Positions 4,887 through 59,503 of a stretch of 64,000 bases of DNA are shown in pieces. A program made the translations under genes and the position numbers. Numbering within the stretch: the first letter of the stretch is position 1; the number at the start of each line of letters is the position of its first letter. The notes under the pieces were generated by a model. It did not search any database, had not been told where the DNA came from, and worked only from the letters and a program-made list of their open reading frames with translations. This stretch comes from Dicyema japonicum (taxonomy: Eukaryota; Dicyemida; Rhombozoa; Dicyemidae): contig RDEW01000018.1 of NCBI GenBank assembly GCA_011109175.1, positions 913,962-977,961 of the forward strand. Reading direction: 5' to 3'.

Positions 4887-6494
4887 TCAATGTCTGGAAG
4901 AGTTGGTGTACCTCATAGCATCGTGCTTATTAAAAATGCAGAGGAATGTAATCAAAGCGGAAATCAGGAAAATAATGTTGAACCACCTTTGGTAAAAATC
5001 AAATCTAAGGCCTTCCAAAATGGAAGTAATTATGGTCCTATACTCCGGAGGCACAGTGGACCTCATCAGTAACACGGAGGAGACACAGTACATCCCCTAA
5101 CCAATGAGACCATAATCTACCATGATCTCCGCCATCACCAAAAACAATAATGTCAGAAAAGGTCCCTTCGTTTGCCGCCCCTGTGAACAACCTCTCAAGA
5201 TTCAACAGAAGACCCCTCACACTGGTCACTGCCAGGATCCCCACTGCCATAAACGACGCCTGTTGAGACCACAGTTTCACCTATGCCATAAAATAGCTCA
5301 CTACGTCAATGTCGATCGAAAGAAAGCCTACCAAGATCGCTATTCCATTAGTAACGGGGTCCGCCCCGCCCACACGATTAAGTAGAATGCTGACGATCGT
5401 CTAAAGGTCACTCAAAATGCCACAATAAAAATCTTCCAGCAGCAGTAACCGAAGAACAACCAACCGACGATGTTGAAATAGATCCCCTTGTAGGTTAGTG
5501 ACTCTAGTATGAGTTTCTAATGGGTGAGAGTGGTGGGTACCCGCTGTCTGGCCAACTCTCGATATTCAAGGTAGTACCAGGTGAACGAATCCTCTAGCAG
5601 TTCAATCTCACGTGCTAGTTTTCCTAGGCTTCAATACAAGATAAACCGATCTCATCGTCCTCTGAGCTGAAATACTTGGAAAAAACGTGGAAACTCCGAC
5701 TTTTGAGAAGGTTTTCCTCGTTCCTTAAAAGTATGAGTCTACGCTTAGAGCCACGTGGACCTCCTTTTCTTTCCAATAATCATATTCAGTGTGACCATGA
5801 CCTGGTTCTTGGCAAACTCAACGTCCCGATCCTCGACTCGGCTAAAATCAAAAGAAGAGGTACCAGAGGAAGTAGAACATGGTATTGTAAGGGTAGGTGA
5901 TGACTCCGACCCCTGACAGAAGGGCAATAACGGCGACTCCAATGATTCCAACTCGACGACCGCCTGCTCGAGAGAGAGGTACCCTGGGTTGGGGAAAGAA
6001 AAATACCTGCCTTGTGGGAAATGAATGGGAACGGATTTCCGATCTTCCAGAAGAGGCAGAATAGGAAGGCCCAAAGAAGGGTGATGAGGAACCGACGAAG
6101 ACTACGATTAGCTGGAATATAAGAGAAGGATACTGAATGGGAGAGACTGCACAAGGGTGTAAGCCATGTGGAGGGGAATAACGAAAATTATGAAGAAAAT
6201 CATCATCACGAGGCTGAACTTCCAATGAAAATGGCGGGAACTAGGCTTGGGAATAAGTAATACTCTTGGGAGAGGATATCGAGGATCTCGAAAATTATTA
6301 GTTCAAATAAGGTGCACGAGAAGGCGAAGGTGAGGGAGAAAAGGAGAATCACGCTGAAGTTACGGATTTGGTAGTCACGGAAAAGTTTTTCGAGGAAGAA
6401 TATCCACGATCCAAGGAAGAAGATGATCTGTTTTGGTTAAAGAATAGAATACCTGGCTTGCTAAGACAACTATAGAATCTATAACGATCGGCAT
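4887..6494 (-). CDS. GPR89: Golgi pH regulator GPHR (GPR89 family), 12 exons with 22-25 nt introns
   Basis: This is a multipass Golgi/ER membrane protein, the anion channel component needed for Golgi acidification. Exons are 6453-6494, 6264-6427, 6134-6240, 6007-6111, 5864-5983, 5761-5841, 5647-5738, 5541-5623, 5424-5516, 5305-5400, 5121-5280 and 4887-5096. The eleven introns are 25, 23, 22, 23, 22, 22, 23, 24, 23, 24 and 24 nt, all GT...AG. The joined length is 1353 nt, about 450 residues, matching the family's roughly 455. Family landmarks run the whole length: MPIVIDSIVVLASQ at the start, FAFSCTLFELIIFEIL, FHWKFSLVMM, FWKIGNPFPF, GVAVIALLSGVGV, WKIFITIVSILLNRVGGADP, VKLWSQQASF, VTSVRGLL, MYCVSSVLLMRSTVPPEYR and the terminal FDFYQRWFNIIF. 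Two compensating one-base frame breaks (about 5954-5963, and a T run at 5140-5144) look like sequencing errors because the protein is otherwise intact. The start ATG at 6494 aligns with the family N-terminus. Confidence 0.95.
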
Positions 6495-31479: not shown

Positions 31480-34400
31480 TTTATTTAAGCACTTCACGAG
31501 AGCCTTATTAATTATAGCCCCGCATGTGCAGCAAAAGAAACAAGGTTAGATGTCATCCTTTTCCATGCTCTCCTGTTCATAGCCAAGGCTCTCATGCTGT
31601 CCAGGTCGTCGGCATTTTTAGATTTTTTTGATCTTGACCAGGTCTTTTTGTAAGACTATTGGCAGTGTTGTTCTTGGTCTTCCACGATAGCGGCCTTCTT
31701 GACTAACATAGTATGTTTCCATAGATATGTTCGGTGGGGATGTTAATTCCATCCTCAGCACGTGTACGAAGAGCCTCCATCGGGATTCCAGTACTTCTAA
31801 GCTGATAGGTATAGTGCTGCATCTCTTATATAAAGCGTTCCTCGATATTCTCGTAGGCCAAGTAGTTCCTGTTATTTTTCTCAGCTGACCTCTGTGGAAC
31901 GAGTCTAGTTTTTCCATATCCGCTGATGAGGTCGCCCAAGTTCCAGCGTTATATAAAAGTACGGGTTTTATGAATGAGTCGTATAATAGGATTCTCATTT
32001 TCGTGTCGATGCCTTTTTGATTGAGCCATAAATTCTTCAGTTTATATAACGCAGCATTGGCTAGAGTTTTCCTACGTAAAATATCTTCGCTATCTCCCAA
32101 AAGTGAACCGAGTTTCTTTACTTGTCGCCACTTCTCTTCTAGGACGTTACTCATCCTTCTTATCTCTGTGAGTTCTGTTTTCTCTGTTCACAGTAAGAAA
32201 CCATTTCCCTAGTACATCTGGTGCTTTTTCTAATAGGTTTTCCAGGACCTCTTTGTCTTCAGAAATTAGGTCTACATCGTCCGCGTAGATTACTTCTTCC
32301 GTCTTTCCTTGGTATGACGGTCTAAGTTCCCTCATAGCGGCTTCCAAATAAATTGTGAATAGTAGAGGAGAAAGAGAGTCTCCTTGTGGAGTGCCCGTAT
32401 TTGTTTCAAATTTTCTTGAATAGGTTTTTCCGACTCTCACAAGGAGCTCAGTGTTAGAAAGTAGAATTCGGATCATCCTTAGACTCGATTCATCAAGAAA
32501 TCCGCTCAGTACCCCCATTAATTTGTTCCTGTTAACCGTATCAAAAGCTCTTGATAGGTCAATTCCCAGAATATTGGTGGCGTTACGGTATCTTTGATAT
32601 GTTGCACACCTCCATCTGTGACTCCAGACCGCATCAGCTGTGGATCTCCCTTCTCGAAAACCACTTTGACTATCTGGTAGGTATTTGTAAGCAGATCCTT
32701 TTATTCGTTCAAGCACAATGTTTGCCAAGACTTTGCGTAATGAATTTAGTAGTATGATGGGTCGCAAATTTTCGAGCGGTCCTCTGTTTTTGTTGTTTTT
32801 TGTATGGGGATTAGTAGTCCCGTACCCAGAGGTAGAGTTGAGTTAGTTGAAAACATTTCATTTAGTAGTGTAGCGATTTTTTCAAAAAGGAGGTCAGGGC
32901 CGTATTTCAGTAGTTCTGGGTTTATCGCATCTGGTCCGGGGCTTCTGTTATTCTTGAGTTTTCGGCAGGCCGTTTTGATTTCCTCGGCCGTGATTGGTAT
33001 CTTAAGGGGTCTTGGCCTTCCATCAAATGGGTGGATTTCTATGGTTTTGATGTTGAAAAGCTTCTCAAAGTGAGCCGCGATGGCTTCAGTTTGTTCTTTG
33101 GTGTTCAGTATCAGCTTACCGTTCTCGTCTTTTATGGTTAGTCGACTTCGGTTTGTTCGCCGCAGCAAACGGGCAGCGACGTACACCTGTGCGTTGTCTT
33201 TCACTTTGTTTACTTCTTCTATACAGGAGCTATTTCTTCTATGAAAAGCTTCTTGTTCAGACCCTTTATTTTTCTTCTGACACGTTGTCTTTCGCCTTGA
33301 AGGGCTTTTATCGCATTAGTGTCAGTGGCATTTGATTTTCTCATATTTATTTCTTTTAGACTTTTCGCAAGCTCAGGAACATCTGGATGAATAGCCTTCA
33401 GGTGCATTTTACTATTCTCCCTTTTGCCAAGACATGCTTCAGCAGCTTCGTTGATGGTGTCCTTTGTGCGTTTCCAGGCGTCTTCTAGCGTGGTATCCAC
33501 CAATACGTCCTGCAAATTAGTCTGAATGTATTGTTGATATCTCTCAGTAGTCTCCGGTTGAGAAATCAGCCTTTCAGTCGCGTAGTCGCCTCTGATTTTC
33601 TCAAATTCGTGATTTTTTGCATTCTGTATTTAATGGCATGTTTTTTCAGGGTGAAGGTCGCAATAACCATCTTGTGGTCGCTGACAGTCGTCGAGCCTTC
33701 ATATGAACGTGCGTTTACTAGAAGGTGTTTGTCTTTAGCCCGGCATATGACATAATCGATTTGGTTGTATATTGGGACCAGCTTTCCTTCTGAGTTCCTT
33801 CGCTTCCCCATCCACGTAGTTTTGTGGCAGGCAGGATGCGTAAATGCAGTATTGCATAGGAAAAGGTTGTTTGCCATACAAAAGTGACCAAGTATTGTCC
33901 CGGGTAAATTTCTTATTCCACGTCCATGTTCTCCCAAGAAAACATCATCCGGGTTATTCTTCATCCCGACTTTTGCATTCAAATCCCAGCAATGAGTATT
34001 AGTGATGACGACTCATATTCGTTGTACGTCCGTAACAGTGCTGAATAGAAGTCGTCTAGTTCTGTCGGATCTTTCGCTACTCTCCCGCAGTGTGGCGCAT
34101 AAACATTTACAATTGTCAGAAAGCTCTTCGAAGGTGGTAAGTCGTTTAGCCGGATTTGTATAACACAGATCCTGTCATTCACACTCCATATACGGTGGAC
34201 TGCACTTGTCAACTTTGAGTGGATGGCAAATCCAAGTCCATAATGTTTTGAGTCGCTTGGCTGACATATAATTCGATATTCGCCAAAGTTTTCATCAAGG
34301 CTACAAGTAACTTTCGTCTCTTGTAGGCACCCAATAGATACGTCGTATCTCTCCAGGTCATCACAGAGAATCTTCCTCGACCATGTCGTAGATAAGCCTC

Positions 34401-34520
34401 TAGCATTGAACGTAAGGACTTTTAGACGAGATGCATCGCTTTTGTATCCATTGCCTTTTAGACATTTTTCTCAATTGCGATCCAATCAAGAAACGAAGCA
34501 CGTCACCACCTCACCAAAAA
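31480..34520 (-). mobile_element. RTE-type LINE (endonuclease + reverse transcriptase), unit 1, broken
   Basis: The single ORF runs on the minus strand from MSKRQW (34463-34465) to the stop at 31618-31620. It begins with an apurinic-type endonuclease (NARGLS, CLQETKV, YNQIDYVICRAKD, SDHKMV). This is followed by reverse transcriptase (NNRSPGPDAINPELLK, GFREGRSTADAVW, DLSRAFDTVNRNKL, TPQGDSLSPLLFTIYLE, IYADDVDL) and the tail RGRPRTTLPIVLQKDL. This EN-RT plan in about 3 kb, lacking a separate ORF1, fits the RTE group and CFDP2-like proteins. Several one-base breaks interrupt it, among them a lost G in the endonuclease GDLN motif near 33985. The 3' UTR is short (31480-31617). Confidence 0.85.
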
Positions 34521-39039: not shown

Positions 39040-41757
39040 TTTATTTAAGCACTTCACGAGAGCCATTAATAATTATAGCCCAGCATGTGCAGCAAAAGAA
39101 ACAAGGTTAGATGTCATCCTTTTCCATGCTCCCCTGTTCATAGCCAAGGCTCTCATGCTGTCCAGGTCGTCGGCATTTATTTGATTTTTTTGATCTTGAC
39201 CAGGTCTTTTTGTAAGACTATTGGCAGTGTTGTTCTTGGTCTTCCACGATAGCGGCCTTCTTGACTAACATAGTATGTTTCCATAGATATGTTCGGTGGG
39301 GATGTTAATTCCATCCTCAGCACGTGTCCGAAGAGCTTCCATCGGGATTCCAGTACTTCTAAGCTGATAGGTCTAGTGCTGCATCTCTTATATAAAGCAT
39401 TCCTCGATATTCTCGTAGGCCAAGTAGTTCCAGTTATTTTTCTCAGCTGACCTCTGTGGAACGAGTCTAGTTTTTCCATATCCGCTGATGAGGTCGCCCA
39501 AGTTCCAGCGTTATATAAAAGTACGGGTTTTATGAATGAGTCGTATAATAGGATTCTCATTTTCGTGTCGATGCCTTTTTGATTGAGCCATAGATTCTTC
39601 AGTTTATATAACGCAGCATTGGCTAGAGTTTTCCTACGTAAAATATCTTCGCTATCTCCCATAAGTGAACCGAGTTTCTTTACTTGTCGCCACTTCTCTT
39701 CTAGGACGTTACTCATCCTTCTTATCTCTGTGAGTTCTGTTTTCTCTCTGTTCACAGTAAGAAACCATTTCCCTAGTACATCTGGTGCTTTTTCTAATAG
39801 GTTTTCCAGGACCTCTTTGTCTTCAGAAATTAGGTCTACATCGTCCGCGTAGATCACTTCTTCCGTCTTTCCTTGGTATACGGTCTAAGTTCCCTCATAG
39901 CGGCTTCCAAATAAATTGTGAATAGTAGAGGAGAAAGGGAGTCTCCTTGTGGAGTGCCCGTGTTTGTTTCAAATTTTCTTGAATAGGTTTTCCGACTCTC
40001 ACAAGGAGCTCAGTGTTAGAAAGTAGAATTCGGATCATCCTTAGACTCGATTCATCAAGAAATCCGCTCAGTACCCCCATTAATTTGTTCCTGTTAACCG
40101 TATCAAAAGCTCTTGATAAGTCAATTCCCAGAATATTGGTGGCGTTACGGTATCTTTGATATGTTGCACACCTCCATCTGTGACTCCATACCGCATCAGC
40201 TGTGGATCTCCCTTCTCGAAAACCACTTTGACTATCTGGTAGGTATTTGTAAGCAGATCCTTTTATTCGTTCAAGCACAATGTTTGCCAAGACTTTGCGT
40301 AATGAATTTAGTAGTATGATGGGTCGCAAATTTTCGATCGGTCCTCTGTTTTTGTTGGTTTTTTGTATGGGGATTAGTAGTCCCGTACCCAGAGGTAGAG
40401 TTGAGTTAGTTGAAAACATTTCATTTAGTAGTGTAGCGATTTTTTCAAAAAGGAGGTCAGGGCCGTATTTCAGTAGTTCTGGGTTTATCGCATCTGGTCC
40501 GGGGCTTCTGTTATTCTTGAGTTTTCGGCAGGCCGTTTTGATTTCCTCGGCCGTGATTGGTATCTCAAGGGGTCTTGGCCTTCCATCAAATGGGTGGATT
40601 TCTATGGTTTTGATGTTGAAAAGCTTCTCAAAGTGAGCCGCGATGGCTTCAGTTTGTTCTTTGGTGTTCAGTATTAGCTTACCGTTCTCGTCTTTTATGG
40701 TTAGTCGGCTTCGGTTTGTTCGCCGCAGTAAACGGGCAGCGACGTACACCTGTGCGTTGTCTTTCACTTTGTTTACTTCTTCTATACAGGAAGCTATTTC
40801 TTCTATGAAAAGCTTCTTGTTCAGACCCTTTATTTTTCTTCTGACACGTTGTCTTTCGCCTTGAAGGGCTTTTATCGCATTAGTGTCAGTGGCATTTGAT
40901 TTTCTCATATTTATTTCTTTTAGACTTTTCGCAAGCTCAGGAACATCTGGATGAATAGCCTTCAGGTGCATTTTACTATTCTCCCTTTTGCCAAGACATG
41001 CTTCAGCAGCTTCGTTGATGGTGTCCTTTGTGCGTTTCCAGGCGTCTTCTAGCGTGATATCCACCAATACGTCCTGCAAATTAGTCTGAATGTATTGTTG
41101 ATATCTCTCAGTAGTCTCCGGTTGAGAAATCAGCCTTTCAGTCGCGTAGTCGCCTCTGATTTTCTCAAATTCGTGATTTTTTGCATTCTTGTATTTAATG
41201 CCATGTTTTTTCAGGTTGAAGGTCGCAATTCAAATCCCAGCAATGAGTATTAGTGATGACGACTCATATTCGTTGTACGTCCGTAACAGTGTTGAATAGA
41301 AGTCGTCTAGTTCTGTTGGATCGTTCGTTACTCTCCGCAGTGTGGCGCATAAACATTTACAATTGTCAGAAAGCTCTTCGAAGGAGGTAAGTCGTATATA
41401 ACACAGATCCTGTCATTCACACTCCATATACGGTGGACTGCACTTGTCAACTTTGAGTGGATAGCAAATCCAAGTCCATAATGTTTTGAGTCGCTCGGCT
41501 GACATATAATTCGATATTCGCCAAAGTTTTCATCAAGGCTACAAGTAACTTTCGTCTCTTGTAGGCACCCAATAGATACGTCGTATCTCTCCAGGTCATC
41601 ACAGAGAATCTTCCTCGACCATGTCGTAGATAAGCCTCTAGCATTGAACGTAAGGACTTTTAGACGAGATGCATCGCTTTGTATCCATTGCCTTTTAGAC
41701 ATTTTCTCAATTGCGATCCAATCAAGAAACGAAGCACGTCACCACCTCACCAAAAAA
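39040..41757 (-). mobile_element. RTE-type LINE, unit 2, with internal endonuclease deletion
   Basis: The ORF runs from MSKRQW (41700-41702) to the stop at 39177-39179. Its central part is the best preserved of the three copies: 394 codons are open over the linker and reverse transcriptase palm, and 226 over the YADD box and C-terminus. A segment of about 315 bp present in copies 1 and 3 (33664-33977 in copy 1) is missing at 41229. This removes the middle of the endonuclease including the region before SDHKMV. A one-base break near 39885-39890 separates the two long frames. Confidence 0.85.
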
Positions 41758-46301: not shown

Positions 46302-49300
46302 TTTATTTAAGCACTTCACGAGAGCCTTATTAATTATAGCCCCGCATGTGCAGCAAAAGAAACAAGGTTAGATGTCATCCTTTTCCATGCTCTCCTGTTC
46401 ATAGCCAAGGCTCTCATGCTGTCCAGGTCGTCGGCATTTATTTGATTTTTTTGATCTTGACCAGGTCTTTTTGTAAGACTATTGGCAGTGTTGTTCTTGG
46501 TTTTCCACGATAGCGGCCTTCTTGACTAACATAGTATGTTTCCATAGATATGTTCGGTGGGGATGTTAATTCCATCCTCAGCACGTGTCCGAAGAGCCTC
46601 CATCGGGATTCAGTACTTCTAAGCTGATAGGTCTAGTTCTGCATCTGTTATATAAAGCATTCCTCGATATTCTCGTAGGCCAAGTAGTTCCTGTTATTTT
46701 TCTCAGCTGACCTCTGTGGAACGAGTCTAGTTTTTCCATATCAGCTGATGAGGTCCCCCATGTTCCAGCGTTATATAAAAGTACGGGTTTTATGAATAAG
46801 TCGTATAATAGGATTCTCATTTTCGTGTCAATGCCTTTTTGATTGAGCCATAGATTCTTCAGTTTATATAACCCAGCATTGGCTAGAGTTTTCCTACGTA
46901 AAATATCTTCGCTATCTCCCATAAGTGAACCGAGTTTCTTTACTTGTCGCCACTTCTCTTTAGGACGTTACTCATCCTTCTTATCTCTGTGAGTTCTGTT
47001 TTCTCTCTGTTCACAGTAAGAAACCATTTCCCTAGTACATCTGGAGCTTTTTCTAATAGATTTTCCAGGACCTCTTTGTTTTCAGAAATTAGGTCTACAT
47101 CGTCCGCGTAGATCACTTCTTCCGTCGTTCCTTGCTATAACGGTCTAAGTTCCTCATAGCGGTTTTCAGATAAATTGTGAATAGTAGAGGAGAAAGAGAG
47201 TCTCCTTGTGGAGTGCCCGTGTTTGTTTCAAATTTTCTTGAATAGGTCTTTCCGACTTTCACAAGGAGCTCAGTGTTGGAAAGTAGAATTCGGTCATCCT
47301 TAGACTCGATTCATCAAGAAATCCGCTCAGTACCCCATTAATTTGTTCCTGTTAACCGTATCAAAACTCTTGATAGGTCAATTCCCAAATATTGGTGGCG
47401 TTACGGTATCTTTGATATGTTGCACACCTCCATCTGTGACTCCAGACCGCATCAGGCGTGGATCTTCCTTCTCGAAAACCACTTTGACTATCTGGTAGGT
47501 ATTTGTAAGCAGGTCCTTTTATTCGTTCAAGCACAATGTTTGCCAAGACTTTGCGTAATGAATTTAGTAGTATGATGGGTCGCAAATTTTCGACCGGTCC
47601 TCTGTTTTTGTTGGTTTTTTGTATGGGGATTAGTAGTCCCGTACCCAGAGGTAGACTTGAGTTAGTTGAAAACATTTCATTTAGTAGTGTAGCGATTTTT
47701 TCAAAAAGGAGGTCAGGGCCGTATTTCAGTAGTTCTGGGTTTATCGCATCTGGTCCGGGGCTTCTGTTATTCTTGAGTTTTCGGCAGGCCGTTTTGATTT
47801 CCTCGGCCGTGATTGGTATCTTAAGGGGTCTTGGCCTTCCATCAAATGGGTGGATTTCTATGGTTTTGATGTTGAAAAGCTTCTCAAAGTGAGCCGCGAT
47901 GGCTTCAGTTTGTTCTTTGGTGTTCAGTATCAGCTTACCGTTCTCGTCTTTTATGGTTAGTCGACTTCGGTTTGTTCGCCGCAGCAAACGGGCAGCGACG
48001 TACACCTGTGCGTTGTCTTTCACTTTGTTTACTTCTTCTATAGGAAGGCTATTTCTTCTATGAAAAGCTTCTTGTTCAGACCCTTTATTTTTCTTCTGAC
48101 ACGTTGTCTTTCGCCTTGAAGGGCTTTTATCGCATTAGTGTCAGTGGCATTTGATTTTCTCATATTTATTTCTTTTAGACTTTTCGCAAGCTCAGGAACA
48201 TCTGGATGAATAGCCTTCAGGTGCATTTTACTATTCTCCCTTTTGCCAAGACATGCTTCAGCAGCTTCGTTGATGGTGTCCTTTGTGCGTTTCCAGGCGT
48301 CTTCTAGCGTGGTATCCACCAATACGTCCTGCAAATTAGTCTGAATGTATTGTTGATATCTCTCAGTAGTCTCCGGTTGAGAAATCAGCCTTTCAGTCGC
48401 GTAGTCGCCTCTGATTTTCTCAAATTCGTGATTTTTTGCATTCCTGTATTTAATGGCATGTTTTTTCAGGGTGAAGGTCGCAATAACCATCTTGTGGTCG
48501 CTGACAGTCGTCGACCTTCATATGAACGTGCGTTTACTAGAAGGTGTTTGTCTTTAGCCCGGCATATGACATAATCGATTTGGTTGTATATTGGACCAGC
48601 TTTCCTTCTGAGTTCCTTCGCTTCCCCATCCACGTAGTTTTGTGGCAGGCAGGATGCGTAAATGCAGTATTGCATAGGAAAAGGTTGTTTGCCATACAAA
48701 AGTGACCAAGTATTGTCCCGGGTAAATTTCTTATTCCACGTCCATGTTCTCCCAAGAAAACATCATCCGGGTTATTCTTCATCCCGACTTTTGCATTCAA
48801 ATCCCAGCAATGAGTATTAGTGATGACGACTCATATTCGTTGTACGTCCGTAACAGTGTTGAATAGAAGTCGTCTAGTTCTGTCGGATCTTTCGCTACTC
48901 TCCCGCAGTGTGGCGCATAAACATTTACAATTGTCAGAAAGCTCTTCGAAGGAGGTAAGTCGTTTAGCCGGATTTGTATAACACAGATCCTGTCATTCAC
49001 ACTCCATATACGGTGGACTGCACTTGTCAACTTTGAGTGGATGGCAAATCCAAGTCCATAATGTTTTGAGTCGCTCGGCTGACATATAATTCGATATTCG
49101 CCAAAGTTTCATCAAGGCTACAAGTAACTTTCGTCTCTTGTAGGCACCCAATAGATACGTCGTATCTCTCCAGGTCATCACAGAGAATCTTCCTCGACCA
49201 TGTCGTAGATAAGCCTCTAGCATTGAACGTAAGGACTTTTAGACGAGATGCATCGCTTTGTATCCATTGCCTTTTAGACATTTTTCTCAATTGCGATCCA

Positions 49301-57739: not shown

Positions 57740-59503
57740 TCAGGCAGTTTTGCTATAGAAGGACAGGATGAGGTTACACAATACATGCATGGGAGATATA
57801 TTTGCAGCAGTGAGGCTGCGTGGAAAATTTTTTGGATTTCCCATACATGATAGATATCCTTTGGTAATGGATTTGAGTACACTTTGGAAAATGTACAAAA
57901 GAGTTTACTTCAATGAAGAAAACGTAAAAGACCAAATACAAACCACAAAGAATCTTTATGCTTTCTTTGGACTTGTGAACATACACAAAACATTATTATA
58001 TTGTGAAATTCCTAGATACTACACATGGGAAACTACCAGTAAGAAATTCAAACGAAGAATAAGAGAAGAACCAGTGAATGGATATCCAGGAATTGTAAGT
58101 AGTGATGCATTGGGCAGGGTGTACACAGTTTACCCTAACAACTCCGAATGTTATTGTGTTAGGTTGCTTCTGCATACCATCCGAGGACCGAAATCTTTTA
58201 CTGATTTAAAGACAGTCGATGGAGTAATCCGCGCAACATATAGAGAAGCCTGTTTTAAATTGGGACTTTTAGAAGATGACAAAAGCTGGACGACGCATTG
58301 ACCGAAGCTGGGATTTTCAATATGCCATCACATATTAGATATTTATTCACATTGATGTTGACATATTGTAATATATCAAATCCCTACAACTTTGGGAAGC
58401 ATAAAGAAATAATGTGTAAAAATATATTAAAGAGGGACACAAAATCAGATTTGATGAGGACATTTTTAATGAAGATTACTAATCATCAATAGATGCCTCG
58501 AGTCAGTGATTGGCGAAAATATTAATGAGTACGGGTTTACCGTTGACAGTCAAAATACTGCAAAAATTTGGAGATGTGAAAAATATAATTTAGAAAACTT
58601 CAAATAATAAAAGAAAGGGAACGAATTTATTGGAAGGTCAATCAAGAATCTAATCATCAATAGATGACTCGAGTCAGTGATTGGGAAAAATATTAATGAG
58701 TACGGGTTTACCGTTGACAGTCAAAATACTGCAAATAATTTGGAGTGTGAAAAATATAAATTAGAATAATTGCATCAAATAATAAAAGAAAGGGAACCGA
58801 ATTTATTGGAAGGTCAATCAAGAATCTATACTGAAATTAACAGAAATTTTGAAGAAAATGATGGTAAGATATTTTTTATAGATGCACCAGGAGGTACAGG
58901 TAAGACATATTTGTTGTATCTATTCTTAGCAAAGGCGAGATGCAATCATAAAATAGCCATAGCAGTTGCATCTACAGGTATCGCGGCTAAGCTTTTAGAT
59001 GGTGGTCGAACAGCGCATTCAATGTTCACACTACCATTTAATCTAGCAAGAGATATGGACCCAGTTTACAGCATTAAAGGAAATTCACTTATTAGGACTA
59101 TTATACGTGATTGTAATCTAATAGTATGGGATGAGTGCACAATGGTAAGTAAAAGAGCATTTGAAGCAGTTGATAAAACTTTTCGCGACATAAAACACTT
59201 CGACATACCGTTTGGTTAATCGGTATTAGTAATAGCAGGTGATTTTAGACAGACACTGCCTATTATTCAAAGGGGAACACCAGCAGATGAATTAAATGCA
59301 TGTCTGAAATCATCGTATTTGTGGACTTTTGTAAAAAAGGTAAGTTTAGATATAAATATTCGTGCACAAAACAAGTCAGAACGAATACCTTCGCTAAGGT
59401 ACTTTTAAATATAGGGAATGGAGCACTCGAAAAAAATTCGGAAAATTTAAAGGTACAACTTCCTGAAGAATTATGTATAAATGTATACAGCCCAGAAAAA
59501 TAA
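57740..59503 (+). mobile_element. Helitron helicase (PIF1-like) with preceding Helitron domain, broken
   Basis: In order this shows: QDEVTQYMHGRYICSSEAAW with FGFPIHDRYPLV; TKNLYAFFGLVNIHKTLLYC and EIPRYYTW (57933-58040); ECYCVRLLLHTIRGPKSFTD; ALTEAGIFNMPSHIRYLFTL; and finally the helicase at 58770-59219. The helicase has Walker A (APGGTGKT), the STGIAAKLL block and Walker B (LIVWDECTM). After a stop comes AGDFRQTLP (motif III). These are the typical successive blocks of the Helitron RepHel protein. The Rep nuclease, motifs IV-VI and the ends are missing. Frame breaks occur near 57830-57930, 58290 and 59217, and a 171 bp tandem duplication splits the ORF at 58.48-58.83 kb. Confidence 0.8.
58479..58825 (+). 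repeat. 171 bp tandem duplication inside the Helitron ORF
   Basis: CTAATCATCAATAGATGCCT at 58479 is repeated from 58650 with few differences, up to CAATCAAGAATC. Only the second copy leads in frame into the helicase. Confidence 0.85.

Follow-up and report, generated by a model that had tools for sequence, protein, structure and literature searches.

The GPHR gene and its surroundings

The window, by which we mean the whole 64-kb stretch of Dicyema japonicum DNA analysed here, carries on its minus strand a gene for a membrane protein of the Golgi, the Golgi pH regulator (GPHR, GPR89-type). After removal of the GT-AG segments, its coding region runs from an ATG at 6494 to a stop codon ending at 4887. 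This identity had been proposed in a sequence-only reading of the window and is well supported: the spliced product contains the Pfam domains ABA_GPCR (98 bits) and GPHR_N (50.1 bits) against a cut-off of 22.1, and a protein search that scored 7999 candidates gives 349 homologues at E <= 0.001, the top match having an E-value of 1.1e-109 and 45% identity across 99% of the query. The homology with animal GPHR is full-length and colinear (profile columns 0-436 of 455), the exons in the spliced alignment contain no stop codon, and the product comprises 444 amino acids under one splicing choice. The gene shares with the GPHR/GPR89 family (Pfam PF12537 and PF12430) both domains above the cut-off as well as homology over the full length; it differs from other family members by a very long branch (3.13), which has no supported place in the tree, the five nearest rows by path being spiralians. 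There is no named dicyemid among the 120 listed of the 349 homologues, many matches bearing no name, and no solved structure matches the product at E <= 0.001.

A search of the 64.7-Mb genome with the ABA_GPCR profile of Pfam found one match, inside this gene. The sequence-only reading had named a separate intact GPHR gene elsewhere as evidence against splicing, and the search matched this gene only; it is blind to introns and scores the best candidates only, so that a divergent second copy could be missed.

Several other features are present in the window. An exon with a RhoGAP domain lies at 262-609 (38.8 bits). Repeat units of ~5.3 kb, judged by their spacing, occupy about 9500-30000, and seven tRNA-like copies, whose anticodon ARAGORN cannot assign, are found between 12370 and 28473. 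Similar reading frames of a LINE-like element occur in three places (31600-34500, 39200-41700 and 46600-49100); in the one frame tested, Pfam identifies RVT_1 at 39895-41229. A fragment of a PIF1-like helicase (58770-59219, 122.7 bits) perhaps belongs to a Helitron-type element.

Table 1. Coordinates of the GPHR gene, its introns and the minor-spliceosome RNA genes. The score drop is the number of bits lost if the intron is forbidden, frame jumps being allowed unless stated otherwise; the fourth intron is given in two alternatives.
Feature	Coordinates	Strand	Evidence and remarks
GPHR coding region, ATG to stop	4887..6494	-	spliced homology, Pfam
Intron 1, 25 nt, phase 0	6428..6452	-	score drop 11.4
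Intron 2, 23 nt, phase 2	6241..6263	-	score drop 14.0
Intron 3, 22 nt, phase 1, begins GTATCCTT	6112..6133	-	score drop 18.4
Fourth intron, alternative A, 23 nt, phase 1	5984..6006	-	picked at 22-25 nt with frame jumps
Fourth intron, alternative B, 19 nt, phase 1, frame kept	5964..5982	-	open search; score drop 8.1
Intron 5, 22 nt, phase 2	5842..5863	-	score drop 18.9
Intron 6, 22 nt, phase 2, ends uncertain	5739..5760	-	score drop 0.6; in-frame stop if kept
Intron 7, 23 nt, phase 1, ends uncertain	5624..5646	-	score drop 2.3; in-frame stop if kept
Intron 8, 24 nt, phase 0, in-frame stop	5517..5540	-	score drop 8.4
Intron 9, 23 nt, phase 0	5401..5423	-	score drop 15.2; 51.6 without frame jumps
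Intron 10, 24 nt, phase 0, in-frame stop	5281..5304	-	score drop 8.0
Intron 11, 24 nt, phase 0, in-frame stop	5097..5120	-	score drop 19.5; 0.6 without frame jumps
Coding-strand run of five T with a one-base frame break	5138..5142	-	spliced alignment
U12 RNA gene	C68:163471-163599		one match above cut-off, 85.4 bits
U11 RNA gene	C1:1591391-1591510		one match above cut-off, 67.6 bits
U6atac RNA gene	C34:237761-237858		one match above cut-off, 37.0 bits

Short introns in GPHR and in other genes

The introns were studied with a spliced-alignment program that we wrote for aligning a protein profile with DNA; it charges a fixed price per intron at any length and optionally allows frame jumps. The profile consisted of 110 GPHR homologues, chosen by length from the 120 listed. 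A spliced protein alignment with a minimum intron of 15 nt had been proposed as a check in the sequence-only reading, and it supports the introns: allowing GT-AG introns of 15-60 nt, without frame jumps, yields 472.0 bits, as against 115.2 bits with neither introns nor jumps. The score increases to 491.0 bits if frame jumps are added at 12 bits, while frame jumps alone give 251.5 bits; thus, the introns are jointly worth 239.5 bits (introns and jumps versus jumps alone). In a control at 22-25 nt without frame jumps, GT-AG ranks first among 256 donor/acceptor dinucleotide pairs with 432.0 bits, compared to 331.1 for the next pair and a mean of 148.3.

An open search (10-120 nt, jump price 12 bits) selects 11 introns, of 25, 23, 22, 19, 22, 22, 23, 24, 23, 24 and 24 nt. 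Ten of these 11 fall within 22-25 nt, although this range accounts for 31 of the 626 GT-AG candidates. Forbidding a single intron with frame jumps allowed costs at least 8 bits for eight of the ten; each drop is small because a frame jump can take the place of an intron. The exceptions, introns 6 and 7, sit in a poorly conserved stretch where alternatives score nearly the same: intron 6 competes with a 16-nt segment having the same acceptor and is replaced by a frame jump at a jump price of 8. Intron 11 without frame jumps has a drop of 0.6 and is replaced by a 49-nt intron with the same acceptor. In eight of the ten introns, reading through runs into a stop within the first nine codons (zero-based index 3-8), and in the others at indices 19 and 25; hence, unspliced RNA would be marked for decay.

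The same habit is observed in other genes. Our sample includes 50 introns from 13 genes: GPHR (10), nine actin loci (24), V-ATPase B (7), V-ATPase A (3) and ATP synthase alpha (6). Their median length is 24 nt and the mean is 24.4; 49 of the 50 are 22-28 nt long and one is 34 nt, the latter (in the actin locus L012 of our numbering) being doubtful with a four-residue gap beside it. None is shorter than 22 nt, the search allowing 15 nt. The 24 introns from actin paralogues are non-independent; the other 26 span 22-27 nt. The actin sample comprises the fetched loci, further actin matches lying outside the alignment. Left out of the 50 are the contested fourth GPHR intron; L013, which is the same gene as L012; the unaligned L004 and L008, judged to be second copies of L003 and L007 by near-identical match rows; the apparent 60- and 68-nt introns of ATP synthase alpha, which arise from a tandem duplication there; and a segment of V-ATPase A. 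The tandem duplication (L043, 2346-2477) lies within the ATP synthase alpha gene and is either real or an assembly artefact. The V-ATPase A segment (around 1801 of L041) appears by eye to be a 25-nt intron with GT...GG ends, or else the acceptor base is in error.

Tubulin introns were kept apart. There are 14 of them, 21-49 nt long (9 under 30 nt and 5 at 30-49 nt), counted if the score drop was at least 5 and the length below 60 nt, in the 12 of 24 fetched loci that were aligned; four others, including one of 20 nt, had smaller drops and were not counted.

At GPHR, the segments have GT-AG ends, and their removal restores both the frame and the homology. Together with the rank of GT-AG among the dinucleotide pairs and with introns in the same size range from 12 other genes, this agrees with the sequence-only reading, in which the introns were taken to be spliceosomal, and we infer that they are excised from the transcript. 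We consider it highly probable that this is a functional dicyemid GPHR gene, the only copy found, with 11 U2-type spliceosomal introns of about 22-25 nt.

The fourth intron and the frame breaks

The sequence-only reading counted eleven introns of 22-25 nt. Ten of them are picked in the open search and stand; the eleventh, i.e., the fourth in order of translation, is ambiguous between 23 and 19 nt. Restricting the introns to 22-25 nt, at a jump price of 12 or 16 bits, yields exactly eleven, the last of them to be accounted for being the 23-nt segment 6006-5984; this set has 482.4 bits at a jump price of 12 and is very likely the one meant in that reading. It contains two one-base frame breaks, one near 5957 and the other in the five-T run near 5142. 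The statement that eleven such introns by themselves recover the protein has to be corrected: at 22-25 nt without frame jumps, twelve introns are needed (432 bits), ten of which are those listed in Table 1 for GPHR, while two are placed elsewhere and sacrifice conserved residues.

It is quite possible, although this is not the reading to which we incline, that the fourth intron is really 19 nt long, i.e., below the size of the others, and that the break in the T run alone remains. The 19-nt segment (5982-5964) keeps the frame by removing the break near 5957, its flanking residues GIF match the consensus, and it has the top score of the open search, exceeding the 23-nt set by 8.6 bits at a jump price of 12 (491.0 vs 482.4) and also leading at a price of 8 (495.9 vs 491.3 bits). 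Excluding it loses 4.6 bits at a jump price of 8, where the 23-nt intron is the runner-up, and 8.1 bits at prices of 12 and 16, where a 16-nt intron takes second place. Against it, none of the 50 sampled introns is that short in spite of the permitted minimum, the shortest of the 14 additional tubulin introns has 21 nt, and the 23-nt alternative restores GYLSLEQ, which is close to the family consensus GIFSIEQ, at the expense of the break near 5957.

Consequently, the gene, described as complete in the sequence-only reading, is so with respect to its ATG, stop codon and full-length homology; one or two one-base frame breaks remain after splicing, namely that in the T run and, if the 23-nt fourth intron is used, the second one. 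Without frame jumps, the T run requires a 19-nt intron and a six-residue gap in the spliced alignment at 15-60 nt. One-base breaks at homopolymers are also found in other genes: at C runs in the same codon of two actin loci (L002 and L012), at a C run in the beta-tubulin locus L052 and, in V-ATPase A, at a T run. Breaks outside homopolymers occur in actin L006 and in V-ATPase A near 1211 of L041, and V-ATPase B and five of the nine actin loci are free of breaks. The breaks in GPHR are most likely assembly errors, the simplest reading.

A different explanation is that GPHR is a recent pseudogene, the breaks being real and the full protein not made. One or two one-base breaks within 1.6 kb are what it would predict, and five tubulin loci of the same genome, with 3-11 breaks each, may be real pseudogenes. 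We believe this to be improbable for GPHR, since it is a conserved gene found in one copy, its homology is full-length (the best match shares 45% identity across 99% of the query), its aligned exons are stop-free, and actin and tubulin genes are likewise broken by one base at homopolymers. That the GT-AG segments are mere chance and all frame changes are sequencing errors is hardly credible: the assembly does seem to carry one-base errors, but frame jumps alone fall 239.5 bits below introns with jumps, GT-AG stands apart from the 255 other dinucleotide pairs, and three of the ten introns are 24 nt long with in-frame stops, which no single-base indel produces.

Splicing and comparison with published introns

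The GPHR gene suggests a pattern that is even across the genome, with a lower bound of about 21-22 nt and donors carrying about 0.4 bit beyond GT. Among the 50 introns, the donor begins with GTA in 22 and with GTT in 19, G at +5 is found in 16%, and the information at positions +3 to +6 is about 0.42 bit (0.29, -0.04, 0.11 and 0.06; corrected for the small sample). The acceptor is TAG in 34 of the 50. A strong branch motif is not found in these 50 introns above the shuffled level: CTRAY occurs in 1 (shuffle mean 2.0) and TACTAA in 0. YTRAY occurs in 14 (10.3), TTRAY in 13 (8.5) and YTNAY in 28 (22.0). The loose TNAY is clearly enriched, in 43 of the 50 against 33.1 in shuffles, a count reached in 0 of 400 shuffles.

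The pattern combines this lack of a strong branch motif with ordinary-looking recognition sequences in U1 and U2. The best U1-like RNA gene retains ACUUACCUGG, and the U2 gene retains GUGUAGUA. All 11 U1 matches are below the Rfam cut-off (the best has 69.0 bits vs 69.5), while 22 of the 25 matches for U2 and 9 of the 10 for U6 are above it. We infer from the sequence that splicing proceeds by intron definition, in which the minimal intron would be recognised as one unit. U1 would recognise a donor consisting of hardly more than GT(A/T), U2 would recognise a weakly defined A close to the acceptor, and AG would serve in the second step; the small size, the A+T-rich content and the in-frame stop or frame change on retention would presumably do the remaining work.

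The genome also has single matches above the cut-off for U12, U11 and U6atac RNAs (Table 1). U4atac has no match in the genome, an absence that says little. A minor spliceosome thus seems to be kept, most of the sampled introns of this genome being 22-28 nt long. U12-type introns have the consensus RTATCCTT at the donor and TTCCTTRAY at the branch site, and GPHR intron 3 starts with GTATCCTT, which we take to be a U12-type donor. It agrees exactly with the donor consensus; the chance of this by column shuffling is 0.049 among 64 introns. The branch site disagrees, the best window having 3 mismatches in 7 to CCTTAAC, and the intron was rejected as a U12-type candidate. It is highly doubtful that intron 3 is a substrate, squeezed to 22 nt, of the minor spliceosome that seems to be kept; if it were, donor and branch recognition of the U12 type would nearly touch at this length. 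Our literature search found no paper on a U12-type or minor intron in GPR89 or GPR89A and no mention of a minor spliceosome in dicyemids, on which the dicyemid passages of PMC2483917 are silent. The presence of tiny introns beside minor-spliceosome RNAs is a point worth a specialist's look.

The size of the GPHR introns fits what is known of dicyemids, minute parasites of octopuses and squids. A survey of dicyemid introns was reportedly made by Ogino et al. in 2010. According to the excerpted texts of the papers cited here and below, introns of about 25 nt occur in most of the printed dicyemid genes (PMC2222250, PMC6543705), GPHR being a different gene from these. The mean is 26.2 +/- 1.9 nt in Dicyema acuticephalum (n = 16; PMC2222250), and in the genome of Dicyema sp. 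the median is 27 bp with about two thirds below 30 (PMC6543705), as compared with our median of 24 nt for the 50 introns. In the orthonectid I. linei, the median is 57 bp (PMC6543705). In dicyemid introns, the donor score of 0.5 bit is described as the weakest known, and a branch signature is lacking (PMC2483917); our 0.42 bit is near this value, although the printed score may be defined otherwise. The sequence-only reading was right that such introns are described for dicyemids (PMC2222250, PMC6543705, PMC2483917). The tiny-intron habit is already in print, and GPHR adds one gene to the known pattern.

Very small introns that have weak sites and lack a branch signature are likewise described, in the excerpted text, for Paramecium tetraurelia and the nucleomorph of Bigelowiella natans (PMC2483917), which are lineages unrelated to dicyemids. 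The printed nucleomorph introns of 18-21 bp are shorter than those of GPHR (PMC2222250), so that the remark in the sequence-only reading that 22-25 nt is close to the physical limit needs a qualifier.

The ATP synthase beta sequence of D. acuticephalum is published (PMC2222250, in excerpt); no named dicyemid is present among the 120 listed of our 7998 ATP synthase beta matches. In the corresponding tree, the branch is 0.67 long and its place is unsupported, two hemichordates being nearest by path.

The excerpted report on D. japonicum (PMC6736024) puts the assembly at 67.5 Mb, the estimated genome size at 65 Mb and GC at 36.7%; the genome analysed here has 64.67 Mb, and the GC content of the window is 36.8%. 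Like the intron size and the weak donors, these values agree with published dicyemids, and it is improbable that the introns are those of some other animal in which they shrank independently. The same report prints a mean intron of 38.2 bp. The disagreement between this mean of 38 bp and our median may reflect the minimum intron length of the gene finder, and gene finders with a larger minimum would be expected to miss genes such as GPHR.
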